Positions 282-26,450 of a stretch of DNA of 64,000 nucleotides are shown here, in pieces; the stretch's first letter is position 1, and every line of letters begins with the position of its first letter. The stretch comes from Clostridiales bacterium. Its GTDB lineage: Bacteria; Bacillota; Clostridia; Lachnospirales; Lachnospiraceae. Position numbers and translations under genes: made by a program. Location: positions 141,803-205,802 of the forward strand of contig JAMPHY010000004.1 of the NCBI GenBank assembly GCA_023663185.1, given 5' to 3'. Under the pieces are notes generated by a model. That model was not told the DNA's origin. It did not search any database and worked only from the letters and a program-made list of their open reading frames with translations.

Positions 282-368
282 ATAATTAAAATTAAAGTTT
301 TCTCACATACTAAAAAGGACATACTTATGTATGTTCTTTTTTATTATGGAAAGGAATGCGGTACAGAT

Positions 369-1640
369 ATGACTGATTATAAATTGAAAAACTATCGCAG
401 ATTTTTATATATACTATTCGTGACCGGATTATTGGCTCTGGCTGCGGCAGTGTACATGAATTATTGGAAAAAGGTGCCGTCCACGATTATGATTCGTGCC
501 GGAGTTGAACAGGAGCTTGATTTTAAAGTTCCTGCTTCCGGTGAAATATATCAGCAGGAATCGGTAGAAAGCGTCTCGACGAGCGTAGAGAGCCTGCATG
601 TCAATTTCAGCAAGGGAGTGACGCTTAAAGCCAACCGAATAGATAACTATAAAATGAATTTGAAGCTGTTCGGAATACTTCCTTATAAAGATGTGGATAT
701 TCAGGTTATTCAGGATAAAACCCTGATACCGTCGGGCATTCCCATAGGCATATATGTAAAGACGCAGGGAGTTTTGGTCGTAGGCATAGGCGAGTTTAAA
801 AATCCGGCGGGAGAGATAATCTCACCGGCAAAATATATTCTCCAGCCGGGCGACTATATTCTGGAAGTGAATGGAGAAAAAATAGAAAATAAGAAACAGT
901 TTGTTTCAATTATAGAAAAATCGGCAGGAAATGAACTTATATTGACGCTTCTTAGAAACGAAGAGACTACGGAAGTGAAAATTTCACCGCAGAGCAACCA
1001 GAACGACGAATGGAAGCTCGGTATCTGGGTAAGGGATAATGCGCAGGGTATCGGCACACTGACTTATGTAGATTACGATGATACATTCGGAGCGCTGGGG
1101 CATGGAATTAACGACGTGGATACTTCTACACTGATGCTGCTTGGCGAAGGAACCTTATATAAAACCGAAATCATAGGGATTACAAGAGGGGAGAACGGTT
1201 CGCCCGGAGAGCTGACCGGATATATAGAGTATAATAACAATAATATAATTGGTGAGATTACACAGAATACGGCGGAAGGAATTTTCGGGGTATGCAAGGA
1301 CGAAGTCGTGCAGCAGACGGCGTATGAGGCGATTCCGATTGCCTTAAAGCAGGAAGTGCAGACAGGACCGGCACAGATTATATGTTCAGTCACCGGAGAA
1401 CCCAAGCTTTATAATATTGAGATTACGGAGCTTCATCTGGAAAACGACAATGTTAATCGGGGAATGGTGCTAAAAATCACAGACAATGAGCTGCTTGCGC
1501 TTACAGGCGGTATTATTCAGGGCATGAGCGGCAGCCCCATCATACAGAACGGTAAGTTTGTAGGCGCGGTTACGCATGTTCTGGTAAACGACGCCGCCAG
1601 CGGCTACGGGATTTTTATTGAAAATATGCTGGTGCAGTAG
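369..1640 (+). CDS. spoIVB: SpoIVB, stage IV sporulation serine peptidase (S55 family)
   Basis: SpoIVB is made in the forespore, crosses into the intermembrane space and triggers pro-sigma-K processing. Visible parts are an N-terminal membrane anchor (about residues 12-30), a PDZ domain (about 126-215) and the S55 peptidase domain. The catalytic set is intact: His245 in GALGHG, Asp372 and Ser387 in MSGSP. These keep the same mutual spacing as the published Bacillus subtilis residues His236, Asp363 and Ser378. I chose the ATG at 369, which gives 423 residues, close to the 425 of B. subtilis, with GGAAAGGAA at 348-356. An in-frame ATG at 327 with AAAAAGG upstream would add 14 residues and cannot be excluded. 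The usual neighbour spo0A does not follow directly (see 24335). Confidence 0.93.
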   Translation: MTDYKLKNYRRFLYILFVTGLLALAAAVYMNYWKKVPSTIMIRAGVEQELDFKVPASGEIYQQESVESVSTSVESLHVNFSKGVTLKANRIDNYKMNLKLFGILPYKDVDIQVIQDKTLIPSGIPIGIYVKTQGVLVVGIGEFKNPAGEIISPAKYILQPGDYILEVNGEKIENKKQFVSIIEKSAGNELILTLLRNEETTEVKISPQSNQNDEWKLGIWVRDNAQGIGTLTYVDYDDTFGALGHGINDVDTSTLMLLGEGTLYKTEIIGITRGENGSPGELTGYIEYNNNNIIGEITQNTAEGIFGVCKDEVVQQTAYEAIPIALKQEVQTGPAQIICSVTGEPKLYNIEITELHLENDNVNRGMVLKITDNELLALTGGIIQGMSGSPIIQNGKFVGAVTHVLVNDAASGYGIFIENMLVQ

Positions 1641-5600: not shown

Positions 5601-8600
5601 TCGACAGGACGATCTATACCACGGAGAAATCAAAGATAGAAGTCTCGGCGACATCGGGAGGGCACGTGAAGCGGATCGCGGATACGACCGGCAAGCAGGG
5701 CGGAACACAGACAAACATAAGTTTCCTGACCAACCGTTATAAAGAGAAAAACTATAATACCAGCGCCAATTTTTCGGATTATTATACAGGCGCCAACCAG
5801 AAAACCTACCTGAACGCCACGGCGGACGGCTGGTATTACCGCTATGTGCTGCTGGCGTATGAGGATATGGACGGTTATGAGTACGCCTATTTCGGGACAA
5901 AGGCGTTAAAGGATACACATTATGACCTTGATGGCGGGGAAAAAGGAGCATTGATTTCCGGGATAGCCGGACAGCTCTGGATGTGTAATTTCCAACTAGA
6001 GAAAAAGGGTGCCGCAGGAACCTACAATTTCCCGGACACCCGGACCGGCGGCGAGGAAGGTTCCGGCATGCCCTACAACAGTTCCGGCACGCCATCTAAC
6101 TATAATAACAAGACCTATGTCAAGCTGGGGCTTAACGATACCTGTTATCTTTATTTCGGGGCTACCGGAAGAGATACTGATATCTGGTACATAGACGGTC
6201 TGACCGGCTATGCCCTCGTGTATGATGAGAAAGAGCCGACCTGCATTGGCGTCGCGCCGATGGCGGGCGGTGCCTATCTGCCGGGCGACCCGATCACCGT
6301 GGCGCTTGTCTTTGACGAGATCGTGGACAAGACGAACAGCAGTCTGACCAATGTGGCAGTCAATACAAATGTAGGGACGCTTACCTATGCGGGCGGCGCG
6401 GATACGAATGTCCTGTATTTTACGGGAACGGTGTCTTCTACGGCAAGCTTAAGCGGCAGCAGCGCCCTCAAAGTGACCGGTATCACGAACAGCGGCAATA
6501 TCAAGGATATGTGCAATCTGACGGGTACGGCTTCCACTTTTACCAGCCGCAATACGAATATCGAAGTGGACGCGACCAAGCCGGCAGTGACGATTACGGC
6601 GAAGACAAGCGGTTCCCTGCCTCGTCATCAGGCACAGGTTACGGCGACAGGGGCGGCGTCTATCCAGTATGTGTGGACACAGGACACCACTATGCCCGCT
6701 TATGGCTGGCAGGATGTGAAAAGCGGCACGACGCTGACAGGAAACTGCGGCGCGGCGGGAAAGACAGAAACGTGGTATTTGCACGTGAAAGCGACCGCAT
6801 CGTCGGGCGCGTCCACCCATGAATATAAGGTGTTTACCTTTAAGCAGCCGGCGATCACAGGGGTATCCGTGCGCGCGGAAAGCTCTGCAAACTCTGCGGA
6901 TGTGTCTGATGTATGGAAGACCTCTTCTAAATATATCGTGGTGCAGTATGACGGTGCGCAGACAAACGGCACGACGCTTACCTTTGACGGACCGCAGACT
7001 TCTACGCAGGGCATTACGACCGCGTCCGGCACGAAATATCTGCAGGTCACGAAGAACGGCACTTATACGGTCACGCTGACGGACAGCTACGGCAATGTGA
7101 TCTCCAAGTCTGTGAAGGTGGAAAAAATAGATACGACCGCGCCCACGGCAACAATCACCGAGGCGCGCAGTACGGAGGCGGGGGCTGCGTCGCCCGTCTA
7201 CCATGAACTTACCATGACGGCGCAGGCGGCGGATTTAGCAGGCGCATCGGAGCCGGCTTCCGGCGTGAAGACGGTGCAGTATGCTTTCTCCACGCTTGCA
7301 AATTCATCTTCCGTGGCAGGCAGCGCATGGACGACGCTGACGGATACGGATAAACTCGCGGACGGCAGGTACAAACTGACCTATACCGCGACGCAAACGA
7401 CGCAGACGAAAATATATCTCCATATCAAAGTGACGGACAATGCGGGCAACGCGACCACAGCACGCTCCGCCGACTACACGGTCATTAAAGAGCCTGAGGC
7501 GAGCGCGAAACCACAGATTACGCTGACGCAGACAAGCCCTTCTGCGTCCGGACAGACGAACGGCGACGCGACGCTTACATGGAAGCTGACAAACGGCGGC
7601 GCGGGTAACTGCACGGTCAATGCAGGCGGCGCGAACCTGACCGACAAAGGAACAGGCGACAGCGGCACGATAACCGTATCGAAGAACGGCGTCTATATGG
7701 TGAGCGTTTACGATGAAAACGGCGATTCCGCGCAGGCAGCCCTCGTGGTAAACTGTATCGACAAAGAAGCGCCCACGCTTTCCGCGCTGACGGTCACGCA
7801 GTCAGGCTATGCGAAGACAAAGAGCGTAAGCGTGAGCGGTATCACCGATAACCTGACGACACTGTATGATGAAAAAGGCGTGACAGGCAAAGGCGGCAGC
7901 GGCGTTGCGAAAATAGAGTATCAGCGCGAGGGCGGCAGCACATGGACGACTGTAAATGCAAGCGGCGATACCGCAAGCTTTACCGTGAACAAGCAGGGAA
8001 CCTATAAGGTCAGACTTACCGACCAAGTGGGCAATGAGAGCAAAGAATATACCATAAAAGTAGAAGGGATCGACAATACCGCACCGATATTGACCGCTCA
8101 AGTCAATGCAACGCCCAAGACAAGCGGCTGGTATACCGACAGCACGGTACCCGTAACCCTTACATACGAGGACAAAGCGGGAGCGGAAGAATCTGCCAGC
8201 GGCGTGAAGTCCGTGCAGTACGCCTTTACAATGGATAAAAACACCACTCCGGCAAACCTCACAAGCCTCGGCTCCACGGCGGTGTCAAGCGGCAGCGCGG
8301 TCTGCAGCCTGACCAGCAACGGTACTTATTACCTCTACTGCAAGGTGACTGATCAGGCAGGCAATGTGACGGCGGGCTGGATGAAAGCGGACGGCAGCAT
8401 AGGAAGTGAAAGCAGTGCTGCTGTACCCATCAAGAAAGATTCCAATAAGGGAAGCGGGACGATCAGCGGACCGGCGGAAAGCCAGCCGGCATCGTCCGGG
8501 CTTAATATGAGCATTACCGTATATTACGGTCCCTCCGGCGGTGAGCTGACCGCCACAGGTCAGACCGATTCCATCGGGACGCTTGCTGCCCATGCCGGAC

Positions 8601-11600
8601 CTAGCACAAAGAGCGAGACGGTTTCCTATACCACGAAGACCATCGGCACAAACTATATCTATCTCAGCCCTATATCATGGGGGAGCCGATATTACTGGAG
8701 TTATTATGTGCGCAAGGTGAGCTTCGACAGTCAGGGCGGCAGCGCGGTGGCGGACCAGCTTGTGTGGACGAAACAGGCAAGCACGTCCACAAGCACGTCG
8801 GTGGACTGTAAGCTGACAAAGCCTAATAACCCCACCCGCACGGGCTATACATTCGGCGGCTGGTACACCGACGCGGCGTGTACGAATGAATTTGACTTTG
8901 AAAAACAGACACAGATACGCACCGACACGACGCTCTATGCGAAGTGGACGGCGATTACCTATGAGGTAGATTATGTGCTGAAAGTGCCGCAGCCGTTCAC
9001 AACCACAGTTACCTACAGCGAGGCGGATTATGAAGCGCCTACTGATAAAACAACCTACATCTACGGGGACGAAATGGAACTGCCCGTACCGACGCTGCCG
9101 ACAGATGTGTCAGGCTTTGTGTTTGACGGCTGGTATACGACAGCCGACTACAGCGGGGCGCGGTATACTTCGGTGCCAAAGACCGCAGCGAGTGATATCA
9201 CGTATTATGGACGGTTTCGGGATGTGGAGGCGCCGATTTCGTATAAGCTTGACGTGTGGAATAATGGTAAACCTTGTTATAACACAGTGGATGGTGTTAG
9301 ATGGTATAATGCAAACACAACAAGGTGCGCACTTCAATTTCGCGAGAACAAAGGGATTGAGAAATACATTGTCTTGTGGGATGGGAATGTTGTAGAATTA
9401 CCAGAGGAAGAAGGAATATTGCATACCACAAGTATGGCTATAGGTAATAAGTGGCTACAAGGTATTTATTTTGCACGAAATTTATGGGAAGGCTATGAGA
9501 TCCAGACGGGGACACATACCTATACGGTGCAGGCATGGGACGCAGAGGGTAACATGGGTGAGTTCACCACTACGTTACACTACGACCCCGACGCGCCCAC
9601 AATCGGCGACATTACCTACACGGTAACCCCGGTTATACGGTATAGGACGAAAGATACATATACCGATAGTAGTATAAGTAGTAGCAAGTTTGTAGACAAT
9701 TATGAAACTGACAGCACAGAGGTAAGGATGTTTGGCAAAAGACCGACAATCCGCATTCCTGTCAGTGACGCGACCAGCGGGTTGTGGAAGCTTACTTATA
9801 CAATGACGAGACTCAACTCTAAGGGTCAGGGGCTAACAACTGAGACGAAGGAAATTGATTTGACCGGGCAGGGCAGCGAGGGAATCGTGGAGATTGAGAT
9901 GGAGAAGGACTGGCACGGCACAATCACGGATATCATACTCTACGATAAGGCAGGCAACCAGTCAGCAGTCACGGCCATCGGCGAGATCATGGTAGATACC
10001 ACGGCGCCGACGATTAGTAATATTAAGCTGTTAGGTAAGGAACCGGAAGACAGATGGTATTCGGAAAGTGAGTTTGAAACGAATCCATATTTTGACTATA
10101 AGCTTGGGGATAATTTTTCTTTTGCGTCCTACCGTATGCTGAAAAATGGAAAGGAAATTAGAAATGGTTCCATATGGGCTGCTAGCTTAGGACTCCATAT
10201 AGCAATAGGTAAGGATGGAAAAGTAGGGGAGGAATATCTGGGTGAAAACACGTTTACATGGGAAGCGACAGATCCACTCGGAAACGTCACGACGAAAAGC
10301 GTGACCATTAAAATCCGCAAAGACGACGGAACCGTTCAGGAGCAGACTCCGCAGGCAGTCTGCGACTACCCGGCGGACGCTATCTCGCACCTTGTTGCAA
10401 ATGCGGAGTATGGGATTACCATTAACGGCAACTCCTACCCCGTAACTACGGACGAACAGGGCAGGATTCCTTTTGAAACGACGTTTGGCAGTATTACGTC
10501 TCTCTGCGGCACGACCATACAGATTGTCAAGAAAGGGATAACAGTAGACGGAACGCCATACACAACTGACTCGGAGGCGCAGAGCCTTACCATTAACGCG
10601 CGCCCGGACGCAAACGCGGTGAACAGCGCGACAGTTGTTGCGGAGCTGTTGAAAGAGGCGGGCGATGCGAAGATAACCTTGACGATGAGCGGCAGTTCGG
10701 ACGATACAAATCGGACATGGGAATATCAGACGCCGGGCAGTACGGCATGGACGACCGCGCCGACTGATGATAGCGGCAATGTCACCATCACCAACCTTCC
10801 CGCAGGAAATATCACCCTGCGCGTCAAGGCACAGGCGAACAGCTCCGATACGGTGAACGACGGCTTTCCGCATGGCGTGACAGGCACACAGACGGTCAGT
10901 GAGGGCGCCGGTACGATTACGGTACAGTATAATCTGAATGACAATGATAGTACGGTTAAAGCACAGGGGAAACCCGAAGATACGTCGTTATTAACCTACC
11001 AGAGCACACTGACCGCGCCGACCGCGCCTACAAGGACAGGCTATAAGTTCATGGGCTGGTATGTATCTGAAGACGACTATGTACCCGGCGGCAGCACCGA
11101 GCAGGCGTGGCGTTTTGCGGGTACGGCGAATGCGCAGATCGTCGGGGAGATACTCGGTGACGACCGCGATAAATATGAGGACCATTGTAAGATGGAAGAA
11201 GGCGTTTATGTCGTCACCCTCTACGCAGGCTGGCGTGAGGCTGTCGCGCCGGAACTGACTGCCACCCTTACCGATAACAGTAACGGCGCAGGCAACAGCA
11301 ACGACGGCGCAGGCGGCAGCGGCGCAGGCGCAGGCAGCAGCAGCGGCGGCACAGGCAACAGCAGCGGCGGCGCAGGCAGTAGCAGCGGCACGACGATTAC
11401 CGATGATGGCTGGCATAACAGCCTTGCGATAGACCTTAATTTCTCTGATAACGTAGGCGTGACGAAACTGTATGTGAAAAAGGACAGCGCCGCTTATGTG
11501 GAACTTAGCGGAGACGGTATCGGAGATGGGGCAAGCGCAGGAACGACATACAAATTGACTTATCCTGCTATGAAGGAAGGCGCTAGTATAGAAGAAGGCG

Positions 11601-14600
11601 TACATACCTACACCTTTATGGCGAAGGACGCCGTAGGAAATGATAAAACAGTGTCGGTAACGACGAAACTGGATACGACTAAGCCGGTATTTGGCGAAGC
11701 CTCTTTTGAAAATGGCTATAAGAACCTCTGGAACTGGATAATCCGCAAAGAGAGCCTTACGATTACCATTCCGATAACGGAAAAAGGCAGCGGTATCGGC
11801 GGTGCGGGTGCAATCGGCAGCGTGGAATATGAGCTGGTCGAGGACACAGACGGCGCGAGTGGCAGCGAATGGAAGACCGCTACAGTCTCCGGCAGTACGA
11901 CGAAAGGCTACGCGGCGAAGATTACTATCCCTGCGGACTTTAAGGGGCAGGTTGTAGTCAAAGCGACAGACAATGCGGGCAATGAGTCCGACGAAATGCA
12001 CATCGGCTCGAATGCGGACGGCGACCTGCGCGGCGTAATCGTGGAAAAAGGCGCGCCGCAGATTAGCGTCAAGGCTGACCGAAACGTAAGCGACGCGACA
12101 TCGACCGTAACAGCGACGGACGCGGCGGCAGGCGCAGCAAACGGCGTTACATTAGATAACGACAGTTATTATAATTCCGCGCCCAGACTTTTTGTGACAG
12201 TGACGGATACATGGGAGACGAAGAGCGGGGAAAGTGCGCTCACGGCTGGGCTTGCGTCAATCGAGTGGACGATTGATGGCAGCGGCGAACACAATCCAAT
12301 GAATCCAGTGCAGGCGAACTACCTCGGCACAGGCAGCTCCAGCACAGGCACAGGCAGCTCCGGCACAGGCACAGGCAGCTCCGACACAGGCACAGGCAGC
12401 TCCGACACAGGCGCAGGCAGCTCCGGCAAAGGCACAGACAGCTCCGGCACAGGCGCAGGCAGCTCCAGCACAGGCACAGGCAGCTCTGGCACAGGCGCAG
12501 ACAGCTACCAGCCGCTTACCACGCACAGCTTTACCATCGCAGGACTCGAAGGACAGACAGGCGAGGTTAAAGTGACCGTTACCGCTACAGATAACGCGGG
12601 CAACGTGACAAAAAAGACCATAACGCTCCATATCAAAGACAAGATGGCGATACCGTCGCCCGTCATTGATTACGTAAATGAGAAATTGACCGGATTAGAG
12701 GTAGGTGCAGACTATATCATCAGCAGCGGGGCAGCGGATGACGCGCAGGGCGGCACGGCGGACACGGCGGACGCGAATGGCAGCATTGCCATAAAAGAGG
12801 AGTGGTTTGGCTCCGACGTAAAAGTCCGCAGGAAGACAACGGACGAAAATACCATACTGGACAGCGACGAAGTGCAGATTACGCTCAATGCGCGCCCGGA
12901 CGCACCCGTTATCACGAAGACCGATGAGACCATCAAGAATAAGGGCGACGGTATGCTGCACCATCTTACCACGGCGATGGAATACCGCAGCAGCACGGAC
13001 GGCGGCAAGACATGGACGGAGTGGACGGCGGTTGCTGATAATAAAATAACAACCGTTACTAACATTGGCGGAGATGGCAAAAGCATGACAAGACTGCCCG
13101 CTTGCGAGATGGAAGTGCGCTTAAGGGCGGTGGCGAATACGACGGACAGCAACGACGGTGCGCCCTACGGACAGTACACTCCTGCGCAGATCGAGGAAGG
13201 GAAGCCACTGACCGTTACCTTTGACACGAACGGCGGCAGCAGCATAGAATCTGTTACGGGACTTGCATGGAATGATACCGTAAAACGCCCGAACGATCCG
13301 GTAAAAGACGGCTACGCCGTTGAAGGCTGGTATCGTGAGAACGCCTTAAGCACCAAATGGAATTTTGCGCAGGCAGACGCAGGAAACACAGCGGGAACAG
13401 GAACCGCGGCGGATCTGCTCAACGATAAAAACGGCGTGGACGTGACCGCAGACGCGCCCGGCATTACCCTCTATGCGAAATGGGTGGACGACGAGGCTCC
13501 GTCCCTTGACGCGACGCTTGTCGCAGGGGATAGCAGGGCAGCGGTGGACGAAGACGGCTGGTATCAAAATCCCGCCATCGTACTGACCTATTCCGATAAC
13601 GAGGAAGTGACAAAGCTTTTTGTAAAAATAGACGGAGAGACAGACCGCGAAGCAGCCTATAAAGAGATTACGGACTATACTACTGCGGCGGAAAACGGCA
13701 CGGACGCCGCAGGCAATAAGCGATTCCAGTATACTTATACGGAGCTTTCGGAAGGACAGCACACTTATACCTTCAAGGCGCAGGATGCGGCAGGCAAGGA
13801 GACAGAGACGACACTTACGGCAAAGCGCGACAGCACGGCGCTGGAGTTTGGCAATGCGTCCTATGAAGAGGGACATAAGAGCCTCTGGGACTGGATTATC
13901 CGCAAAGAAAGCCTTATCATCACGATACCCATCACCGAGAACGGTAGCGGCGTGGAGAGCGTGGAATATACGCTGACTCCCGCCGGCGACACGGCAGGCG
14001 GCAACGGCAGTACAGAAGGCGGTACGGGCGGCGATACAGATAGTGGTACGGGCGGCAGTACAGAAGACGGTACGGGCGGCAGTACAGAAGACGGTACGGG
14101 CGGCAGTACAGATGATACAGGGAATAGCCTGAATATCATCACGGGAACCGCGAAGATAAGCGGCAGCCAGAGCGCAGGTTACACGGCGACCATCAGCATT
14201 GAACCCGATTTCAAGGGTACAGTGAAGATCACAGGCAGCGATAAAGCCGGAAATGCGGCGGCTGAAAAGACCATCGGCACAGACGGCAGCGGTGCAGGCG
14301 GCGTAATCGTCGAGAACAACGCGCCGCAGATCACCATACTGGCGGACCGATATCCTTCGGAAAACGATGCGACACAGGCAGACGGCACACAGCTTCGCGA
14401 CGAGAGGTACAACGGCGCGCCGGGGCTTGTGGTAACAGTCGCGGACGACGGCGCGGGGGACGGCAGTGTGACCACATCGGGCATTGCTTCCGGCATCGCA
14501 AAAGTGTCCTGGGAGGTCGCAGGCACAAGTGAAAAGGGCGAGAGGACCGGCACAGGTGAAGACGGGGCGGGAACGTCCTATAACGCCCAGATGGTGAGGG

Positions 14601-17600
14601 AGGACACCTTCACAATCCCGGCAACGGCGCTGCAGGCGGCGGAGAACCAGGGGAAGACTCGGATCACCGTGACCGTGACCGCTGCAGACCAGGCGGGCAA
14701 CACCGCCGTAAAGATGGTGAACATCGACTTAAAGAGCAAAGAGAATACCCCGAATGCGAAGATCGGCTATGTGGCGGAGACGATCACAGGCTTAAAAGCA
14801 AATACGGCATATGTCATAAACGAAACGGGCGTCCTAAGCAGCGCAGGAGGCGCGGCGGAGATCACGGAAAGCTGGTTCGGTACGCAGGACAATACCATCG
14901 TACTGTCCGGTGACGGGGAACGGACGATGGACAGCCTGCCGCAGAAACTGGATATCCCGGCGCGCCCGGCTGCGCCTTCTGTAACAGCGGGGAATGCAAG
15001 CTACCCCGGCGCAGCGGACGGAACGATTACAGTGACCGATACGGTCAATGGAGCGGCTTATGAGTTTTCGGCGGACGGCGGCGATACATGGAAAGTCGTG
15101 AGCGGCGCGCAGATAACAGGGCTGGCGGCTGGCACATACCAGATACGGCAGAAAGCGCTCGAAGAGAAGAATTTCAAGAGCCTTCCCGCAGAAGTGAGCG
15201 TGGAGGAGACGCCTGCCAAACCTTACGATATGCCGGCGGCAGAGATCGACTATGAAAAAGAACTGCTGACAGGCATTGCGGCGGGCGCGGTATATGAAAT
15301 CTCCTACGACGTCCCGGAGAATGACGGAAACGACAGTGAGGGCGGCGAAGGAGACGGCGGCGGTGAAGAGAACGGCGGAGACGACAGCGGAGACGGCGGT
15401 GAAGAGAACGGCGGAGATGATGATGAGGCTGATTATGAAGGAATCACCGAGACCTTTACTGCGGCGGAGGGCGGCACGCTCCCTGTGAAAGATGAGTGGC
15501 TTAAACAGAAGCTCCACATCATCAGGATGGGCAACAGCAGGGAATGGTGCGCCAGCGACACGCAGCAGCTCGATATTCCGGCAAGGCCCGCCGCGCCGGA
15601 GAACCTTACGGGTATAAGCATCACAAGGGAAAACGCGAACCCGGATAAACTGGCGCAGATAAAAGGTCTGACGGCTGGCACGACCTACGAAGTCTCCACA
15701 GACGGCGGCAAGACTTGGCTGGCAGAGAAAAAGACGGCGGACGCAAGCGGCACAATCAGCGGGCTTGACGCGCCGCAGAGCTACACCGTGCGCGTCGCCG
15801 CAAGCAATGCGAAGAAAAACTTTGCCGGATATCCCAGCGAAACAGCCGTGGAGGTGGATAACTTTACCCTCGCCGTGACCTTTATGGAGGAGGATGAGAC
15901 GGCGGACGGCACAACAGATACAGACCGCTATAAAGTATATCAGACGGCGGACGTCTACTATGGGCGGCTGCTCGATACGGTCCCGGCTGTGCCGACAAAG
16001 AAGGCGGCGGACGGAAGCCTGCTGGTAGGCGAGTGGTGTAAAGATAAAGAAGGGAATACGCCCGTAGATTTTTACACGGAAAAAATAACAGAGGATACGA
16101 CCGTGTATGCGGCGGGCTATGCCGCAGGATATACCGTGACGCTTGCGGGCGGCACGGGCTACAGCCTGACCGCGCAGCGCGGCAGCGTAAGCCCGGTAAA
16201 GAGCGGCGGTAGCTTTACCTTTGTCTTTAAGCTGAGCGAAGGGTATGAGAAGACGGAAAACTTTGCCGTCAAAGTAAACGGCGTGGTGGTAACGCTTTCT
16301 GCGGACGGAACCTATACCATTGAAAACATTACGGCGGCTAAGACTGTGACCGTGGAGGGCGTGAAGAAGACAGCCGCCCCGACACCGCCGGGACCCGATG
16401 AACCGGACAACCCGGATAACCCGGACAAGCCCGATAAGCCGGGCGGCGGCAGCGGCGATGAACCGGGCGGTAACAGCGGCGATGATTCGGGCGGTGACGA
16501 TGACACGCCGGGCGATAACCCCGGAAATAACCCGCCCACCGACAACATACCGCCTACGGACACCACATCGCCTACGGACACCACACCGCCTACGGACAAC
16601 ACACCACCCGCCGATGATACATCGCCTGCGGACGAACGGGAACCGGGCGATGGCGGCAGGAAGCAGAATGATGGCGATGATAAAACGCTAGACGACGGCG
16701 GCGACAGGAAACTGGGCGATGACGACGATAAAACGCTGGACGACGGCAGCGGTAAGACACCGGATGGTGAAAATGATAAAGAGCCGGGCGTGACAGAAAC
16801 GGTCGTGCCTGCCATCATCGAGGACGGAAAGATCGTCATTCCGAGCGGCACACCGGGCGGATCATCAGAGGACGGCACAGGCGGACAGACGGAAGGCATA
16901 GGCGGACAGACGGACGGCACAGACGGACAGACGGAAGGCACGGCGGGAGACTATGCCATTATGACGGATGCTGCAAACGGCGTTACGACGGCGCGAACCA
17001 TCTTCCAGATCCATGACGAAAACGGCAATCCCGCAGGCACAGTCATAGTAACTGTTGTCTGCAAAGAGCAGAAGTGGACGGCAGGCGTGAAGGACGTCAT
17101 CGCCGTGGCGAACGCAGTATTGACAAAAGAACAGATGCAGCTTGTACAGAGCGGCGAGACCATCGAGATCCGCATTGACGTGAAGGATATTTCGGGGAGC
17201 GTGCCGCAGGCAGACAAAGAGACTATCGAGAACTGCATCGAAGCGTACAAAGACGAGATTCCCGGTCTGGTACTCGGTATGTACATAGACATTTCGATGT
17301 ACATCAGGATCGGTGACGGCGACTGGAATGCCATCACAAAGGCGGGCGAACCGGTAGACGTCGTGGTTGGCATACCGGAAGAATTGCAGGCGGACGGCAG
17401 GGCGTACTACATCATCCGCGCCCATGAAGGAGCGTATACCCTTATGGAAGATGCGGACGCTGCGCAAGAGACCATCACCATCAGTACCGATCTGTTTTCC
17501 AGCTACGCGATCGCTTACCAGCAGACCGATGGAGCGGATACAGACGGTAATGGAAAGTGCAGACTTTGTCACATCTGTCCGACATTCCTCGGTATATGCT

Positions 17601-17701
17601 GCTTTATCTGGCTAGCAGTCATTATTGTAACGATTTTGATAATCTGGCTTGTCATTCGCCGGAGGCGCAAGGAGCAGGAAGAACCGGAACAACAGGCGTA
17701 A
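2693..17701 (+). CDS. Giant (5002-residue) multidomain surface protein with InlB-type repeats and C-terminal membrane anchor
   Basis: Probably a cell-surface adhesin-like protein; its ligand cannot be read from the sequence. A basic N-terminus and hydrophobic segment (about residues 15-44, ending ISALAA) form a signal peptide. Then come an acidic repeat linker (about 110-172), many Ig-like/bacterial-invasin-like beta modules with ATDxAGN-type ends, a Calx-beta-like module (about 850-920), and at least three InlB/Listeria-Bacteroides repeats (GYTFGGWYTD to LYAKW, about residues 2010-2090, 2745-2850 and 3505-3600). Ser/Gly/Thr and Pro/Asp linkers separate blocks. The C-terminus has a Cys-rich patch, CRLCHICPTFLGICCFIW, a transmembrane helix and RRRRKEQEE; no LPXTG is present. 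The gene has its own candidate MerR-type promoter and a strong terminator. Base composition is visibly GC-richer than the neighbours, with AT-rich patches inside. RBS: CAGGAG at 2677-2682. Confidence 0.9.
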   Translation: MDEQRAWLKSRRKKRLRITAVILSVCLLVTTYPDILTTISALAADIRSVEGTVTVTGFAKLDEETAMQEVETGTDISELDLPDTLKAYAEAADREDEKPAEDEEKPEEENPGADDEEKPEEENSGADDGTGEENPGADDGTGEENPGADDGTGEEEPGADDGTGEEEPGADDVSPLTIESGSFTLPQYQSENPTGSIAVQTLSTETIEIKNVTWQASPAYDSETEGVYVFTPILPEEELREKGILLSDDIKLPEITVEVYSAFVGDQELTPEQYAHMMAGIQDNPVLLTEEDILAQDPSLAPAGGKRRAAARAAAVIHPGTYVTTKDNENNAGTGVADDDIDQYIRQTDSRMPIEANIFIPKGELPTQSCYIAVRTYDVDWQGDDRFPNIAEYDKLFVNGERVGTLTGLDELWNTSYYKVPLSCLKEGKNTIRIEVWDCTDKSKFWDENPPLVKNENWMISIDWMQLVCDGGSRVGIEEFFISLTSAAAEGKQVAIQAETVIKSTNAGAKYDTEYSITDSKGYIVGSYQEANVSGGTHTFTITMPKNSKNGTYTVQGLLKSQSDGGILAADSMDFIFKDGVVQLGPKITHILSPDTLTNQNVTITPKVADAAGYTNISISLASQTATKNGTYNFTVNYKDNGVTKSIPYTVTVDNIDKVAPVITYEPITIREGQSLEEVEELFAAALSVTDDRKLAEEPFQYTVPADISAAPGTKSITVTATDFAGNTATKSCTITILPDPIKLTMGEPKAVAGSKDSYTLNAVLENTGGGTITETGFVWGVIENPTLDVNNGSAKTASVVKTKGGKLSANAAGIVYGVGYYARAYAKVTADGKTSVAYSDSKRFGSGIPAYGTFSVSGVSGSTFTITRTGGTDGKQTVYYRTVNGSAIGGTHFTHAAGSLTFADGETSKTVTVTEKGVTTAYGGRTTTSYANADRTYSLEIYRVEGGGGIDQSSRYQTRTMSKSSSYTIDRTIYTTEKSKIEVSATSGGHVKRIADTTGKQGGTQTNISFLTNRYKEKNYNTSANFSDYYTGANQKTYLNATADGWYYRYVLLAYEDMDGYEYAYFGTKALKDTHYDLDGGEKGALISGIAGQLWMCNFQLEKKGAAGTYNFPDTRTGGEEGSGMPYNSSGTPSNYNNKTYVKLGLNDTCYLYFGATGRDTDIWYIDGLTGYALVYDEKEPTCIGVAPMAGGAYLPGDPITVALVFDEIVDKTNSSLTNVAVNTNVGTLTYAGGADTNVLYFTGTVSSTASLSGSSALKVTGITNSGNIKDMCNLTGTASTFTSRNTNIEVDATKPAVTITAKTSGSLPRHQAQVTATGAASIQYVWTQDTTMPAYGWQDVKSGTTLTGNCGAAGKTETWYLHVKATASSGASTHEYKVFTFKQPAITGVSVRAESSANSADVSDVWKTSSKYIVVQYDGAQTNGTTLTFDGPQTSTQGITTASGTKYLQVTKNGTYTVTLTDSYGNVISKSVKVEKIDTTAPTATITEARSTEAGAASPVYHELTMTAQAADLAGASEPASGVKTVQYAFSTLANSSSVAGSAWTTLTDTDKLADGRYKLTYTATQTTQTKIYLHIKVTDNAGNATTARSADYTVIKEPEASAKPQITLTQTSPSASGQTNGDATLTWKLTNGGAGNCTVNAGGANLTDKGTGDSGTITVSKNGVYMVSVYDENGDSAQAALVVNCIDKEAPTLSALTVTQSGYAKTKSVSVSGITDNLTTLYDEKGVTGKGGSGVAKIEYQREGGSTWTTVNASGDTASFTVNKQGTYKVRLTDQVGNESKEYTIKVEGIDNTAPILTAQVNATPKTSGWYTDSTVPVTLTYEDKAGAEESASGVKSVQYAFTMDKNTTPANLTSLGSTAVSSGSAVCSLTSNGTYYLYCKVTDQAGNVTAGWMKADGSIGSESSAAVPIKKDSNKGSGTISGPAESQPASSGLNMSITVYYGPSGGELTATGQTDSIGTLAAHAGPSTKSETVSYTTKTIGTNYIYLSPISWGSRYYWSYYVRKVSFDSQGGSAVADQLVWTKQASTSTSTSVDCKLTKPNNPTRTGYTFGGWYTDAACTNEFDFEKQTQIRTDTTLYAKWTAITYEVDYVLKVPQPFTTTVTYSEADYEAPTDKTTYIYGDEMELPVPTLPTDVSGFVFDGWYTTADYSGARYTSVPKTAASDITYYGRFRDVEAPISYKLDVWNNGKPCYNTVDGVRWYNANTTRCALQFRENKGIEKYIVLWDGNVVELPEEEGILHTTSMAIGNKWLQGIYFARNLWEGYEIQTGTHTYTVQAWDAEGNMGEFTTTLHYDPDAPTIGDITYTVTPVIRYRTKDTYTDSSISSSKFVDNYETDSTEVRMFGKRPTIRIPVSDATSGLWKLTYTMTRLNSKGQGLTTETKEIDLTGQGSEGIVEIEMEKDWHGTITDIILYDKAGNQSAVTAIGEIMVDTTAPTISNIKLLGKEPEDRWYSESEFETNPYFDYKLGDNFSFASYRMLKNGKEIRNGSIWAASLGLHIAIGKDGKVGEEYLGENTFTWEATDPLGNVTTKSVTIKIRKDDGTVQEQTPQAVCDYPADAISHLVANAEYGITINGNSYPVTTDEQGRIPFETTFGSITSLCGTTIQIVKKGITVDGTPYTTDSEAQSLTINARPDANAVNSATVVAELLKEAGDAKITLTMSGSSDDTNRTWEYQTPGSTAWTTAPTDDSGNVTITNLPAGNITLRVKAQANSSDTVNDGFPHGVTGTQTVSEGAGTITVQYNLNDNDSTVKAQGKPEDTSLLTYQSTLTAPTAPTRTGYKFMGWYVSEDDYVPGGSTEQAWRFAGTANAQIVGEILGDDRDKYEDHCKMEEGVYVVTLYAGWREAVAPELTATLTDNSNGAGNSNDGAGGSGAGAGSSSGGTGNSSGGAGSSSGTTITDDGWHNSLAIDLNFSDNVGVTKLYVKKDSAAYVELSGDGIGDGASAGTTYKLTYPAMKEGASIEEGVHTYTFMAKDAVGNDKTVSVTTKLDTTKPVFGEASFENGYKNLWNWIIRKESLTITIPITEKGSGIGGAGAIGSVEYELVEDTDGASGSEWKTATVSGSTTKGYAAKITIPADFKGQVVVKATDNAGNESDEMHIGSNADGDLRGVIVEKGAPQISVKADRNVSDATSTVTATDAAAGAANGVTLDNDSYYNSAPRLFVTVTDTWETKSGESALTAGLASIEWTIDGSGEHNPMNPVQANYLGTGSSSTGTGSSGTGTGSSDTGTGSSDTGAGSSGKGTDSSGTGAGSSSTGTGSSGTGADSYQPLTTHSFTIAGLEGQTGEVKVTVTATDNAGNVTKKTITLHIKDKMAIPSPVIDYVNEKLTGLEVGADYIISSGAADDAQGGTADTADANGSIAIKEEWFGSDVKVRRKTTDENTILDSDEVQITLNARPDAPVITKTDETIKNKGDGMLHHLTTAMEYRSSTDGGKTWTEWTAVADNKITTVTNIGGDGKSMTRLPACEMEVRLRAVANTTDSNDGAPYGQYTPAQIEEGKPLTVTFDTNGGSSIESVTGLAWNDTVKRPNDPVKDGYAVEGWYRENALSTKWNFAQADAGNTAGTGTAADLLNDKNGVDVTADAPGITLYAKWVDDEAPSLDATLVAGDSRAAVDEDGWYQNPAIVLTYSDNEEVTKLFVKIDGETDREAAYKEITDYTTAAENGTDAAGNKRFQYTYTELSEGQHTYTFKAQDAAGKETETTLTAKRDSTALEFGNASYEEGHKSLWDWIIRKESLIITIPITENGSGVESVEYTLTPAGDTAGGNGSTEGGTGGDTDSGTGGSTEDGTGGSTEDGTGGSTDDTGNSLNIITGTAKISGSQSAGYTATISIEPDFKGTVKITGSDKAGNAAAEKTIGTDGSGAGGVIVENNAPQITILADRYPSENDATQADGTQLRDERYNGAPGLVVTVADDGAGDGSVTTSGIASGIAKVSWEVAGTSEKGERTGTGEDGAGTSYNAQMVREDTFTIPATALQAAENQGKTRITVTVTAADQAGNTAVKMVNIDLKSKENTPNAKIGYVAETITGLKANTAYVINETGVLSSAGGAAEITESWFGTQDNTIVLSGDGERTMDSLPQKLDIPARPAAPSVTAGNASYPGAADGTITVTDTVNGAAYEFSADGGDTWKVVSGAQITGLAAGTYQIRQKALEEKNFKSLPAEVSVEETPAKPYDMPAAEIDYEKELLTGIAAGAVYEISYDVPENDGNDSEGGEGDGGGEENGGDDSGDGGEENGGDDDEADYEGITETFTAAEGGTLPVKDEWLKQKLHIIRMGNSREWCASDTQQLDIPARPAAPENLTGISITRENANPDKLAQIKGLTAGTTYEVSTDGGKTWLAEKKTADASGTISGLDAPQSYTVRVAASNAKKNFAGYPSETAVEVDNFTLAVTFMEEDETADGTTDTDRYKVYQTADVYYGRLLDTVPAVPTKKAADGSLLVGEWCKDKEGNTPVDFYTEKITEDTTVYAAGYAAGYTVTLAGGTGYSLTAQRGSVSPVKSGGSFTFVFKLSEGYEKTENFAVKVNGVVVTLSADGTYTIENITAAKTVTVEGVKKTAAPTPPGPDEPDNPDNPDKPDKPGGGSGDEPGGNSGDDSGGDDDTPGDNPGNNPPTDNIPPTDTTSPTDTTPPTDNTPPADDTSPADEREPGDGGRKQNDGDDKTLDDGGDRKLGDDDDKTLDDGSGKTPDGENDKEPGVTETVVPAIIEDGKIVIPSGTPGGSSEDGTGGQTEGIGGQTDGTDGQTEGTAGDYAIMTDAANGVTTARTIFQIHDENGNPAGTVIVTVVCKEQKWTAGVKDVIAVANAVLTKEQMQLVQSGETIEIRIDVKDISGSVPQADKETIENCIEAYKDEIPGLVLGMYIDISMYIRIGDGDWNAITKAGEPVDVVVGIPEELQADGRAYYIIRAHEGAYTLMEDADAAQETITISTDLFSSYAIAYQQTDGADTDGNGKCRLCHICPTFLGICCFIWLAVIIVTILIIWLVIRRRRKEQEEPEQQA
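3017..3206 (+). repeat. In-frame tandem repeat coding an acidic Gly-Ala-Asp-Asp linker
   Basis: About five copies of a 33-base unit encode 11-residue repeats of the type GADDGTGEENP. The first units carry variant endings (EEKPEEEN). Neighbouring units are nearly identical at DNA level, so copy number is likely to vary between strains. Confidence 0.8.
11275..11397 (+). repeat. Gly/Ser/Asn-rich low-complexity linker repeat inside the giant gene
   Basis: Short GGC-GGC-GCA-GGC-type units encode alternating Gly, Ser, Asn and Ala (for example GGTGNSSGGAGSSSG). The stretch separates an InlB-type repeat from the next Ig-like block and looks like a flexible spacer. Confidence 0.7.
12328..12513 (+). 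repeat. Tandem repeat coding Gly-Thr-Gly-Ser-Ser linker
   Basis: About ten copies of an 18-base unit reading roughly ggcacaggcagctccagc encode GTGSSx hexads, with Asp, Ser, Lys or Gly in the variable place. It is a slippage-prone flexible linker within the giant gene. Confidence 0.78.
13985..14125 (+). repeat. Tandem repeat coding Gly-Gly-Ser-Thr-Glu-Asp linker
   Basis: Units of 21 bases encode GGSTEDGT heptad-like repeats, two adjacent units being identical at DNA level. They interrupt an Ig-like module in the same place as the linker near 11.8 kb of the paralogous module, which suggests repeated expansion of this loop. Confidence 0.7.
16380..16945 (+). repeat. Pro/Asp/Gly/Thr-rich stalk region of the giant protein
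   Basis: This part encodes proline-rich (PDNPDKPDKPG, PPTDTTPPTD) and acidic (GDGGRKQNDGDDK) repeats ahead of the last folded domain and the membrane anchor. Such regions commonly span the cell wall in Gram-positive surface proteins. Neighbouring short units repeat almost exactly at DNA level. Confidence 0.75.
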
Positions 17702-20870: not shown

Positions 20871-22799
20871 TCACGGAACCTCAAACGCCACGTCCAGCAC
20901 AAAATAACCGTTTTGGACACGATACTCCATATAGCCGTTTCTGCGCTCGGCGGCTTGCATGATATTGGAAAGACCATAGCCGTGCCCTTCTTCTTCCTTT
21001 ATCGAAACAGGCAGACCGTTTGACACAGTCAGTTGCCCGTCAAAGCGGTTACTTACACGCAGTAAAAATAAATTCTGTTGAATACTCGCCTGTACTATAA
21101 TTTCTCTTTCTTTTTCAGGCATTGTTAAGGAGCCTTCCACGGCGTTTTCTAAAGCATTATTTAAGATTAAACATAGCTCCGTGGCGGGAAGTTCACATTC
21201 TCCGATGCCAATATTGCAGATTAATTCAATATGCTGCGCGCTGCATTTTGCCGCATAATTTTGCAGTACCGCATTCATATATGGATTATTGCTGAAAATT
21301 TTCACGTTCTGTTCCCTATGGTATTTAGTGACGCCGTCCAAGTATTTCTTTGCCTCTGCGGGCTTATTATCATCAAGCAGCGCAGCTAAGGTATTTAGGT
21401 GTCCGGATATGTCATGGCGTAAGGCGCGGAGCGCATTTTCATGGGAAAGCCTTGCTTCATAAAAATCCTTCTGCGATATAAGCTGTTTATCAAGCTGCCT
21501 TGCACGTTCTGTCTGCAAGGCTAAATCTGTACGCAGCCCTGCAATATGCCTTATAATCTGGTACAGGGCAAGGATTGATGAGAGTACGAATAATATCACG
21601 GCACACCAGTAGAAAAACAGAGTAATGGCAGGATAACTCATTTCCCTGAAAACATTGGCAATCTGAGCGGCATAGTATCCTTGTCCGCATATAGATATAA
21701 GATACAGGCTGGCAATCAGGCAGAGCGTGATACCAAGTCCGTATAATAACAGGATAAAGATACGGTTCTTTTGCCGCAAGGCTTCCCGAATGGCGAAAAC
21801 AAACAGCGCGGCAAGCGGGAAAAACAACGCCGCTCTTTTTTCCAAAAAAGGACTGTAAAAAGAAAGAGAGCTAAACAGATTCCCAATAGGAGAAATTAGT
21901 GAAACCAAAGTCGAGACTGCGAGAATACAGCCGAATATACGGCGGTCTTTACGGTTCTTCATCTGTAAAAGCAGCCAGATAAGAGGGAGCATAACTTCGA
22001 TTACGGGGATAAATACGGCAAGCGGACTGTCCATAGCGTAGGCTATGGGAGAGATAAAGCTAAACTGTCGCAAATGGGAAAGCATCTGAATCAAGGACGC
22101 CAGAATAAGCAACAGAGACGGATAATCATGGATTCCCTGAAAAAATGCAAAAATCCAGATACCGAAAAGTAAAATTGCGAGTATGCCGAATCCGGCGGCA
22201 GGCATCAGTTCCCTGCTTATGCCGGTTATCAGGGAGTCAGCTTCCGCCGCTGCTGAGGACAGACTGATGGCGGGCATGAAACCATACGCCGAATCTGTAT
22301 GCGCGGTGGCAATCGTGAGTTTTTTGCCAGCAAAATGCGCAGGCAGAGAGCAGCGTACCCATTCTCCCGGCAAGGAAGGCGTAGCGGTATAATTGTCCGG
22401 AAAAGTTATTCTGTCAATACGCATATCGTCTGTTGGGCAGTTGGTGTAGAGCAGCTCATCGTTTATAAATACTGCGCAGGGACGCAAAATATCTAACATT
22501 AGAAAGGTAAATCCTGCATTTTCCTGATTTATAGTCAGGGTGCGCGAGAGATAAAAAACCTTATTTGTTTCCAGATTTATAATGTCCTCTGAGATAAGCT
22601 CTTTACGGCTGCCATCTTCTATCGTATAAATATCCCAGCCGTTAGAATCGGCAATTAACGGCGTAAGGTAAAGCGCTTCCGTTTTTGTCCGAGTAAAAGA
22701 AGTAAGCAGTCCCATAATCCAGACGGTGAGCAGGACGAACATAAGAAGCAGCGCACATTTTGATATATAATGTTTCTTTAAAATAATGTTTTTCTTCAT
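20871..22799 (-). CDS. Membrane sensor histidine kinase, GHKL (AgrC/HPK10-like) type, orphan
   Basis: A 642-residue sensor. After one N-terminal transmembrane helix (about 14-34) comes an extracellular beta-rich sensing region (about 40-190). About seven further helices (195-415), in a 7TM sensor-like layout, lead to a coiled linker. The kinase core shows the H-box RALRHDISGHLNTL (phospho-acceptor His in RHD, near residue 468), the N-box LILNNALENAVEGS and the G-box GHGYGLSNI. This is the short GHKL ATPase form used by quorum-type and peptide sensors. No response regulator gene lies nearby, so its partner is unknown. It sits within the Rpn cluster behind spoIVB. A perfect palindrome lies just upstream of its start. 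Confidence 0.88.
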   Translation of the reverse strand: MKKNIILKKHYISKCALLLMFVLLTVWIMGLLTSFTRTKTEALYLTPLIADSNGWDIYTIEDGSRKELISEDIINLETNKVFYLSRTLTINQENAGFTFLMLDILRPCAVFINDELLYTNCPTDDMRIDRITFPDNYTATPSLPGEWVRCSLPAHFAGKKLTIATAHTDSAYGFMPAISLSSAAAEADSLITGISRELMPAAGFGILAILLFGIWIFAFFQGIHDYPSLLLILASLIQMLSHLRQFSFISPIAYAMDSPLAVFIPVIEVMLPLIWLLLQMKNRKDRRIFGCILAVSTLVSLISPIGNLFSSLSFYSPFLEKRAALFFPLAALFVFAIREALRQKNRIFILLLYGLGITLCLIASLYLISICGQGYYAAQIANVFREMSYPAITLFFYWCAVILFVLSSILALYQIIRHIAGLRTDLALQTERARQLDKQLISQKDFYEARLSHENALRALRHDISGHLNTLAALLDDNKPAEAKKYLDGVTKYHREQNVKIFSNNPYMNAVLQNYAAKCSAQHIELICNIGIGECELPATELCLILNNALENAVEGSLTMPEKEREIIVQASIQQNLFLLRVSNRFDGQLTVSNGLPVSIKEEEGHGYGLSNIMQAAERRNGYMEYRVQNGYFVLDVAFEVP

Positions 22800-24134: not shown

Positions 24135-24334
24135 AATTGAATATATTAAAGAATAATGCAGGAAACTGAATAATAGTTGTACGATAGGCAGGAGAGAAAT
24201 CCCCGCGATGACTGAATATTCCAAAAATCCCCATAGTTGTTTATAATAATGGTAGCACGAAAATAGAAATTATTGGACAATATGTAATTTCTAAATCGTA
24301 ATGCCGGAAAATTGTAATAAAATGGAGGTTTTCT

Positions 24335-24862
24335 ATGGAACAATTAAACTTAACTGTTACAAGAGACAATGAAAAAGTGCAGCAGATTCTTGATAACCTA
24401 ATGAGTACAGATAAAGCGTTTCAGATTATGATAACGGTGCCGTCTAAAATACAAGAAGCCGCAGCCGTGGAAATAAAGGCTTCGGAAAATGTAAACGTCG
24501 TACATGATTTAGAGAGGGACGTCACTAATATGATACATGAAATCGGCGTGCCGGCACATATTAAAGGCTATCAATATCTGCGCGAGGCAATCATGATGTC
24601 CGTCGAGGACGTGGAAATGCTTGGTTCAATTACGAAAATTCTATATCCGACTATAGCGGCTAAATATCAGACGACGCCGAGCAGGGTGGAGCGCGCGATA
24701 CGGCATGCAATCGAGGTGGCGTGGTCGAGAGGGAGAATGGAGACGTTGGACGCATTGTTCGGTTATACCATTAATACCGGCAAAGGAAAACCCACAAATT
24801 CTGAGTTTATCGCGCTCATTGCCGATAAAATCCGTCTGCAGTATCGTAATTATCATAATTAA
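24335..24862 (+). CDS. spo0A: Spo0A-like DNA-binding protein lacking most of the receiver domain
   Basis: Residues about 57-175 are a complete Spo0A effector domain: [46 protein letters not shown] and KPTNSEFIA. These match the region that contacts 0A boxes and RNA polymerase. Normal Spo0A has about 265 residues; this one has 175. The first 30 residues still look like the start of a receiver ([15 protein letters not shown] in place of the usual ADDN type). About 90 residues are then missing, including the phospho-acceptor Asp, the switch Ser/Thr and the Lys. The frame is open and a good GGAGG (24324-24328) precedes the ATG, so it is probably expressed. It lies where spo0A is expected, downstream of spoIVB but 22.7 kb away. 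Known biology predicts loss of phosphorelay control; constitutive or altered DNA binding is inference. Confidence 0.88.
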
Positions 24863-24934: not shown

Positions 24935-25004
24935 TGTAGAAATAGCGTCGCGGAAGCTGTTTCATGGAAAGTGATTCTATTAAAGAATATTGGAGGGTTA
25001 TTTC

Positions 25005-26450
25005 ATGAAGAAGATTCTATTTGTTGCGTCAGAAGGAGTTCCGTTTATTAAAACAGGGGGCTTGGCAGATGTTGTGGGTTCTCTGCCTAAATGTATTGAT
25101 AAAGAGTATTTTGATGTAAGAGTAATTCTTCCCAAATACACCTGTATGTCTCAGAAGATGAAAGATATGCTGCAATACAAGACACATTTTTATATGGATT
25201 TCCATTGGAAAAACGAGTATGTCGGCATTCTCGAAGCTGAGGTTGACGGCGTTAAATATTATTTTATTGATAATGAGTCATTTTTCAACGGATTCAAGCC
25301 ATATAGCGACAATGCTTTATTTGAAATAGAAAAATATGCTTATTTCTGTAAGGCAGCGTTGTCAATCTTGCCGGTAATTGATTTCAGACCTGACCTTATC
25401 CATTGCCATGACTGGCAGACGGGACTTATTCCGGTTTATCTTAAGGAAAGATTTCAGGGCGGTGAATTTTACCGCGGCATAAAGACGGTTATGACAATCC
25501 ATAATCTGAAATTTCAAGGCAAGTGGAGCGTTAAGGAAGTCAGGGAGATTACAGGACTTCCGCAGTATTTCTTCTCACCCGATAAACTGGAAGCTTATAA
25601 GGATGCCAATCTTTTAAAAGGCGGGCTGGTTTATGCGGACGCTATTACTACGGTAAGCGATACTTATGCGGAAGAAATCAAGACGGCGTTCTACGGCGAA
25701 GGACTAAACGGTCTATTATGTGCAAGGGCGCATGATTTACGCGGTATTGTCAACGGTATTGATTACGAGGAGTTTAATCCGGAGACGGATAAAAATATTG
25801 CGTTTGCATATAATGCAGCGAATTTCCGCAAGGAGAAAATTAAGAATAAGCGTGCGCTGCAGGCTGAGCTCGGACTTAATCAGGACGACAAGACGATGAT
25901 GATAGGCATTGTTTCCAGACTGACCGGACAGAAGGGCTTTGATTTAATAGCATATGTTATGGACGAATTATGTCAGGATAATGTGCAGATTGTCGTGCTG
26001 GGAACCGGCGAGGAGCAGTATGAGAATATGTTCAGGCATTTTGACTGGAAATATCATGGAAAGGTGTCGGCAAACATTTACTACTCCGATGCGTTATCGC
26101 ATAAAATATATGCAGCAAGCGATGCGTTCTTAATGCCTTCGTTATTTGAGCCCTGCGGCTTAAGTCAGCTTATGTCGCTTAGATACGGCACGATACCGAT
26201 TGTACGCGAGACGGGCGGACTTAAGGATACGGTAGAGCCTTATAATGAATATGAAAGCACGGGTACGGGCTTTAGCTTCACTAATTATAATGCTCATGAA
26301 ATGTTATCCTCCATACGTTATGCTGAGCGCATTTATTATGATAAGAAAAGGGAATGGAACAAGATGGTGGACAGAGCAATGTCGGCAGATTTTTCATGGC
26401 AGGTGTCCGCTAAGAAATATCAGGAAATGTATGATTGGCTGATTGGCTGA
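25005..26450 (+). CDS. glgA: Glycogen synthase (ADP-glucose type)
   Basis: GlgA transfers glucose from ADP-glucose to growing alpha-1,4-glucan in the cytoplasm. The 481-residue protein starts MKKILFVASEGVPFIKTGGLADVVG, here given as the KTGGL substrate loop at residues 16-20, and has IHCHDWQT, the linker VNGIDYEEFNP, and the GT5 C-terminal ADP-glucose site with SLFEPCGLSQL. Start ATG 25005 is fixed by TGGAGGG at 24991-24997; an upstream TTG overlaps that site. No other glg genes lie nearby. The next gene starts within 30 bases and probably shares the transcript, although its function is unrelated. Confidence 0.95.
   Translation: MKKILFVASEGVPFIKTGGLADVVGSLPKCIDKEYFDVRVILPKYTCMSQKMKDMLQYKTHFYMDFHWKNEYVGILEAEVDGVKYYFIDNESFFNGFKPYSDNALFEIEKYAYFCKAALSILPVIDFRPDLIHCHDWQTGLIPVYLKERFQGGEFYRGIKTVMTIHNLKFQGKWSVKEVREITGLPQYFFSPDKLEAYKDANLLKGGLVYADAITTVSDTYAEEIKTAFYGEGLNGLLCARAHDLRGIVNGIDYEEFNPETDKNIAFAYNAANFRKEKIKNKRALQAELGLNQDDKTMMIGIVSRLTGQKGFDLIAYVMDELCQDNVQIVVLGTGEEQYENMFRHFDWKYHGKVSANIYYSDALSHKIYAASDAFLMPSLFEPCGLSQLMSLRYGTIPIVRETGGLKDTVEPYNEYESTGTGFSFTNYNAHEMLSSIRYAERIYYDKKREWNKMVDRAMSADFSWQVSAKKYQEMYDWLIG

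Follow-up and report, generated by a model that had tools for sequence, protein, structure and literature searches.

Locus and gene organization

The analysed window is a 64,000-nucleotide stretch of a Lachnospiraceae contig (JAMPHY010000004.1, assembly GCA_023663185.1), in which an intact open reading frame of 175 aa (186 aa from stop to stop) codes for a Spo0A with an effector domain and only the beginning of a receiver domain (Table 1).

Table 1. Features at the short spo0A locus; positions are those of the window.
Feature	Position	Strand	Evidence
spoIVB, ancestral upstream neighbour	327..1640	+	TIGR02860, 378.5 bits (cut-off 305.25); synteny
GCGATG element, preceding the candidate -10 element by 37 nt	24205..24210	+	Sequence; recurrence in short-form relatives
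Candidate -10 element TATAAT of spo0A	24242..24247	+	Sequence; TATAxT of relatives 36-38 nt after GCGATG
Ribosome binding site GGAGG, 6 nt 5' of ATG	24324..24328	+	Sequence
Receiver-less Spo0A (form A), 175 aa and stop codon	24335..24862	+	Pfam Spo0A_C, TIGR02875, congener orthologues
N-terminal stub, residues 1-37, from receiver start	24335..24445	+	hhalign 96.5; dN/dS 0.027
Variable linker, residues 38-57	24446..24505	+	Mean top-residue frequency 0.25; dN/dS 0.29
Spo0A effector (DNA-binding) domain, residues 58-172	24506..24850	+	Alignment with 1fc3/1lq1; dN/dS 0.007
glgA, conserved downstream neighbour	24990..26450	+	NCBIfam glycogen synthase GlgA, 638 bits; synteny

The genes spoIVB, spo0A and glgA recur together in relatives of both kinds, whether their Spo0A is full-length or short. 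They adjoin directly in several of these; in others spoIVB and spo0A are separated by an extra gene, or spoIVB falls outside the region viewed. This shared locus argues that the short gene is the orthologous spo0A and not a spare copy. The original prediction had placed it at the spo0A position behind spoIVB, which is the right locus, with the qualification that spoIVB stands 22.7 kb upstream here and is separated from spo0A by genes for a 5002-aa repeat protein, Rpn-family proteins and a GHKL sensor kinase. The 5002-aa product (2693-17701) is of surface type, carrying Listeria-Bacteroides repeats and, at its C-terminus, a membrane stretch. The kinase (642 aa, 20871-22799, minus strand), which lies near spo0A, gives a weak Spo0B-type helical match.

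Domain structure and conservation

The Pfam family Spo0A_C (PF08769) matches residues 63-166 over its full length (model positions 1-104 of 104, 157 bits, E = 1.5e-46), residues 58-171 of the effector align with the structures 1fc3 and 1lq1, and the recognition-helix stretch is invariant across 47 aligned short proteins. The NCBIfam Spo0A equivalog TIGR02875 matches with 205.7 bits against a cut-off of 200, over model positions 116-259 of 262 only; that the cut-off is passed despite the missing receiver supports the assignment of the short protein as a true Spo0A.

Residues 1-31 of the stub align with residues 1-31 of the Spo0A receiver (hhalign probability 96.5), and all 20 receiver starts given to a stub HMM score E <= 5.6e-6. 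A receiver with an acidic pair, Asp and Lys is not present: on consensus lines compared by eye, only residues 1-31 align with receivers, and of the acidic DD pair D11 is kept, with R10 in place of the other residue. The phospho-acceptor segment is absent after the stub, TIGR02875 matching only from position 116 and the open frame extending over 186 aa. The second strand of the stub finds its top ungapped position in the receiver profile at beta4, at a low mean of 1.4 bits.

Among 76 distinct proteins (including that of genome G348, discussed below), the mean top-residue frequency is 0.71 in the stub, 0.25 in the linker and 0.94 in the effector, with D11, L22, F29, I31, I33, V35 and P36 near-invariant in the stub. 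The same division is seen in dN/dS over eight disjoint close pairs (stub 0.027, linker 0.29, effector 0.007), the stub having 49 synonymous and six nonsynonymous changes. The effector value, a quantity that the original prediction had proposed to compute, and that of the stub indicate purifying selection. On this pattern of conservation the stub is best described as a constrained module descended from the start of the receiver, not as debris.

The prediction of a Spo0A with a lost receiver and an intact effector is therefore borne out, as are the open frame, the good ribosome binding site and the N-terminus that starts like a receiver and then lacks the phospho-acceptor. It saw the loss of the receiver and missed the conservation of the stub, a second effector-only Spo0A in the genome and the disappearance of the 0A box from the spo0A upstream region.

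Other Spo0A-type genes

The genome (3.83 Mb in 54 contigs, 94.8% complete) contains two Spo0A_C genes at E <= 0.001, both receiver-less: the short spo0A and a 125-aa gene on another contig. A second, full-length Spo0A, which was to count against the original prediction, is not found in this genome at E <= 0.001. A full-length Spo0A elsewhere in the genus was also considered and rejected: 70 of 77 genomes match TIGR02875 over the cut-off, each with a short protein among the matches listed, which reach about E = 3e-26. The matches of G014 and G017 (183-187 bits) are below the Spo0A cut-off of 200. None of the 72 genus matches starts before model position 115, and their frames are 175-227 residues long; the other five of the 77 congeners (G015, G021, G024, G033 and G052; completeness 93, 68, 93, 86 and 66) have no match above 180 bits.

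Most of the 77 congeners have, among the matches listed, a second match at 111-156 bits of the effector-only kind referred to here as paralogue B. The 26 B proteins collected are 124-132 aa long, two being of an early-branching kind, and 24 of them carry ERAIRNAIEVSW as the recognition-helix stretch, where the A sequence differs. A glycosyltransferase-like cluster occurs in 20 of 21 B loci (within about 8 kb; 3.3 kb at the own locus), and sugar-transferase-like and nucleotide-sugar-enzyme-like clusters occur in 16 of 21 each; these homology clusters were named by eye, the domain scan covering two own-genome neighbours alone, which are a family 2 glycosyltransferase and a mannose-1-phosphate guanylyltransferase-like protein. 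Paralogue B may, from this gene neighbourhood, serve exopolysaccharide genes.

All Spo0A_C genes were listed for 26 short-form genomes of the family (24 genera, G348 included), picked since their best listed frame is short. Each has a short best copy and a second, weaker and shorter one, and 11 of them have 12 further, still weaker copies. Of the 12, five, spread over four genomes, are diverged response regulators that combine a Pfam receiver with Spo0A_C, and one of these reads Ser at the acceptor position by eye; the other seven have no receiver obvious to the eye. A regulator of this diverged kind is also found in congener G047, which has a TIGR02875 match of 92.9 bits over model positions 3-257. 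Taken together, the diverged regulators of the four short-form genomes and one congener (L358-L362 and L371) have a receiver and a distant Spo0A_C domain (Pfam, 34-48 bits and 36-77 bits). A third effector-only Spo0A-like paralogue is present at L363-L367 (genomes G079, G310, G182, G376 and G393); a possible beta-alpha-beta arrangement in its N-terminus resembles the stub at an hhalign probability of 28, which is suggestive of a shared stub-like N-terminus.

The diverged regulators of four of the 26 short-form genomes and of G047 could take phosphate signals. Phosphate control might then persist in the clade, with another response regulator or a separate receiver protein acting on the short Spo0A and the kinase coupling retained, and the GHKL sensor kinase near spo0A in the window would fit such an arrangement. 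Against it, the own genome contains no diverged receiver-Spo0A_C regulator at E <= 0.001, and no separated Spo0A-like receiver above about 93 bits is found in the genus among the matches listed, where only that of G047 starts before model position 103. Persisting phosphate control is considered improbable.

Distribution and origin

The comparison with Spo0A of related genomes that the original prediction had called for shows this receiver-less form in 72 of the 77 congeneric genomes (among the matches listed) and in at least 28 genera. A profile built from 47 short proteins was run against 397 sampled family genomes; 33 of them match it from its first residue at 287 bits or more, and a hand count from the table gives 28 genera among these. 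G348 follows with 273 bits, from residue 4. Among the rows listed, full-length proteins come next, scoring 263 bits or less and matching no earlier than residue 20.

A tree of 146 effector domains sets all 42 A rows apart by a branch with support of 99/99, present in 98% of bootstrap trees; another branch (99/90) does so for the 23 B rows. The tree is built on few columns and has long branches, and the deeper placement of B is unsure. From this grouping, most of the receiver was evidently lost once, in one Lachnospiraceae clade. The shortened G348 protein pairs with the full-length protein of G326 and not with the A rows (88/87, not a starred branch), and it retains a different piece of the receiver, its residues matching CYYIMKPFDNE at 15.6 bits. 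Given its place in the tree and the different piece retained, G348 looks like a second, independent erosion of the receiver.

One of the 33 sampled short genes (G113:C88:34438-34968) contains an in-frame TAG, the sole case among them, which may reflect decay or a sequence error. This interruption would fit a view of short spo0A genes in general as decaying remnants or products of misassembly. However, the architecture occurs in 72 of the 77 congeners and in 33 of the 397 family genomes, recurs across many assemblies including one in a single contig (G455), and is under constraint with dN/dS far below 1. The presence of orthologues in so many genomes already refutes this explanation, including the assembly error that the original prediction had named as a possible refutation, and the probability left to it is negligible.

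Further erosion of the receiver is seen in a 204-aa Spo0A of an uncultured Roseburia MAG (L130, match 3853-4182), which by eye has Glu at the acceptor position. A full-length Spo0A at L113 (2155-2550) also has Glu there.

Relation to known Spo0A forms

The short form shares the orthologous locus and the effector domain with Spo0A of Bacilli and Clostridia (TIGR02875; 1fc3, 1lq1), but it is without a phosphorylatable receiver, retains a 37-residue stub alone and has mostly lost the perfect 0A box upstream of its gene. Atypical response regulators with aspartate-less receivers also have an output untied from Asp phosphorylation; they keep the receiver fold, whereas most of the receiver is deleted in the short Spo0A.

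Receiver-less truncated Spo0A proteins carried by phages have already been published (PMC10294663) and, as far as the available part of that paper describes them, consist likewise of an effector without a receiver. The phage genes align to the effector only, whereas the short form is chromosomal, at the spoIVB-glgA locus, and has a conserved stub, so that it does not belong to the phage type. Of 35 viral loci found, 32 have a readable effector frame; the stub motif occurs in none of these 32, eight of which are cut before the position of the motif. Two viral loci (L282 and L283) look full-length. No chromosomal receiver-less Spo0A was found in open-access titles and the starts of abstracts.

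Sporulation genes

Sporulation genes were searched in 15 congeners chosen by completeness (the own genome included), the 26 short-form genomes, 25 genomes with full-length Spo0A (the best-scoring rows of the family Spo0A_C search) and eight genomes without Spo0A_C, taken from 20 listed, 131 of the 397 family genomes having had no match. SASP is found in 15/15, 26/26, 25/25 and 0/8 of these groups and SpoIVA in 14/15, 25/26, 25/25 and 0/8, respectively; SpoIIGA is found in 15/15, 25/26 and 25/25 of the first three. For the receiver-less genomes together (25 genera) this gives 41/41 for SASP, 39/41 for SpoIVA and 40/41 for SpoIIGA, with SpoIIGA divided between two frames in G349 and present as fragments in G225. 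A SpoIIE-type match is present in 15/15 congeners, 25/26 short-form and 24/25 full-length genomes, and there is one weak match in the eight. SpoIIE and SpoIIAA nowhere exceed the curated cut-off in any genome searched.

In the own genome, spoIIAA, spoIIAB, a SigF-like factor, spoIIGA, sigE, spoIVA, the phosphatase part of SpoIIE, spoIVB and SASP are each represented by an open frame. Of these, spoIIAB, sigE and spoIVA exceed their curated cut-offs; spoIIAA, SpoIIGA and SpoIIE have their own family as the best family, but below its cut-off, and the sigma gene behind spoIIAB matches the SigF/SigG subfamily best and SigF next, in neither case reaching the cut-off.

The SpoIIE match starts at model position 408 or later in all 40 receiver-less genomes that have one (including G000:C7:14500-15522, L375), in frames mostly of about 390-460 aa; in 18 of 24 full-length genomes it starts no later than position 315. 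From these alignments, the phosphatase of the receiver-less clade seems to have lost both its membrane part and its central part. SASP gives exactly one match in 41/41 receiver-less genomes and two or more in 23/25 full-length ones. Spo0E, taken as a marker of the old phosphate control, is rare in both groups (0/41 receiver-less, 3/25 full-length).

Upstream regions

Of 70 full-length loci, 54 have a perfect 0A box (TGTCGAA) upstream of spo0A, versus seven of 79 short loci, with 400 nt scanned for nearly all short loci and 300 nt for full-length ones. Permuted 7-mers reach the TGTCGAA count in 0/629 cases at full-length loci and in 55/629 at short loci. Among family genomes alone the box is found in 20/26 full-length versus 3/26 short loci, and it is absent from the 400 nt upstream of the own spo0A. 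Start codons for these scans were set by rule and some are possibly wrong, and the promoter and clade contrasts compare one clade with the rest, which is essentially one evolutionary event.

Upstream of spo0A, GCGATG followed by TATAxT is found in 47 of 76 distinct short regions versus four of 69 full-length regions, and 46 of 48 such pairs in the short-form regions are spaced by 36-38 nt. The candidate -10 element in the window was not recovered as a sigma-70 type site by a consensus scan. GCGATG was considered as a new site for the short Spo0A and set aside as too weak, being present in 10/20 short and 5/20 full-length spoIIGA regions. 0A boxes show no enrichment at spoIIE or spoIIAA in either the short or the full-length group.

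Upstream of spoIIGA, TGTCGAA is found in 13/20 full-length versus 1/20 receiver-less regions. A GACA element and TATAxT 21 nt apart are present in 19 of 20 receiver-less regions as listed, the twentieth being that of the own genome, where the site is present on reading the printed sequence; in full-length regions the spacing is 21 nt in 18/20 and 22 nt in one more. In B. subtilis the Spo0A-dependent spoIIG promoter is distinguished by a spacing this long. The disappearance of the perfect box from spoIIGA was considered as a sign of lost regulation, and this was dropped, the proximal element and the 21-nt spacing being kept.

These results bear on whether the clade still sporulates. The short Spo0A might have been kept in non-sporulating organisms as a stationary-phase or metabolic regulator (of glycogen or polysaccharide) with spore genes merely lingering, as the original prediction had offered for this strain. 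The absence of a SpoIVA match from two and of SpoIIGA from one of 41 receiver-less genomes would be consistent with this, as would the disappearance of the perfect 0A box from the upstream regions of both spo0A and spoIIGA, and we know of no sporulation phenotype for a member of the clade. However, SASP and SpoIVA are retained across 25 genera (41/41 and 39/41) and both are missing from the eight genomes without Spo0A_C, the spore genes of the own genome are open frames, which disfavours a non-sporulating strain, and the long-spaced core of the spoIIG promoter is retained. A clade that has given up sporulation is considered unlikely.

Functional implications

The orthologous locus, the single origin, the constraint on the protein, the spore genes, the loss of the spo0A 0A box and the kept spoIIG promoter core are observed, and we infer, with a probability of roughly 0.6, that the short protein is a phosphorylation-independent Spo0A that is controlled by its amount or through the stub and still starts sporulation. 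Several points run against this interpretation: the distal perfect 0A box of spoIIGA is also lost (1/20 versus 13/20), SpoIIAA, SpoIIGA, SigF and SpoIIE of the own genome lie under their curated cut-offs, the diverged regulators of some short-form genomes could take phosphate signals, the clade contrast is essentially one event, and constitutive Spo0A is by itself insufficient for efficient sporulation in B. subtilis.

The laboratory allele Sad67 of B. subtilis acts independently of phosphorylation in the expression of early sporulation genes, and efficient sporulation with constitutive Spo0A in B. subtilis needs a second condition, according to the available part of PMC4689505. A phosphorylation-independent output is the mode that would be expected in common for Sad67 and the short form, the latter being a natural state of a clade. 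By analogy with Sad67, the effector would bind 0A-like sites without phosphorylation. The stub could act as a small dimerization or partner-binding module, and sporulation would be set by the amount of the protein made from the changed promoter rather than by kinase action on Spo0A. The effector-only paralogue B could have taken over the polysaccharide branch of the old regulon.

The original prediction that the strain has uncoupled or rewired its sporulation regulon is supported in substance, but the change is one of a whole clade, with at least 28 genera, rather than of a single strain. In its widest form, the proposal would be that at least 28 genera of gut Lachnospiraceae sporulate without Spo0A phosphorylation, with the stub as a new input or dimerization module, control through the 0A box replaced and the regulon split between A and B; taken as a whole, this is put forward tentatively, its chance being judged a little under even.

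In the parts of the two publications that were available, a review (PMC11210211) treats Spo0A phosphorylation as a general gate to endospore formation with a conserved site, and a paper on Epulopiscium (PMC3416734) describes the phosphorylation site as conserved. If the short Spo0A indeed starts sporulation, the clade would be a natural exception to this general gate, and it would allow testing of whether Spo0A dose alone times sporulation. A survey (PMC11170972) reports, in its available part, gut Lachnospiraceae with rather complete sporulation gene sets that have nevertheless `lost' spo0A; the receiver-less form may explain these cases, a link drawn here and not by the survey in that part. 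Predictions of spore formers by the presence or absence of spo0A alone miss the loss of the receiver.
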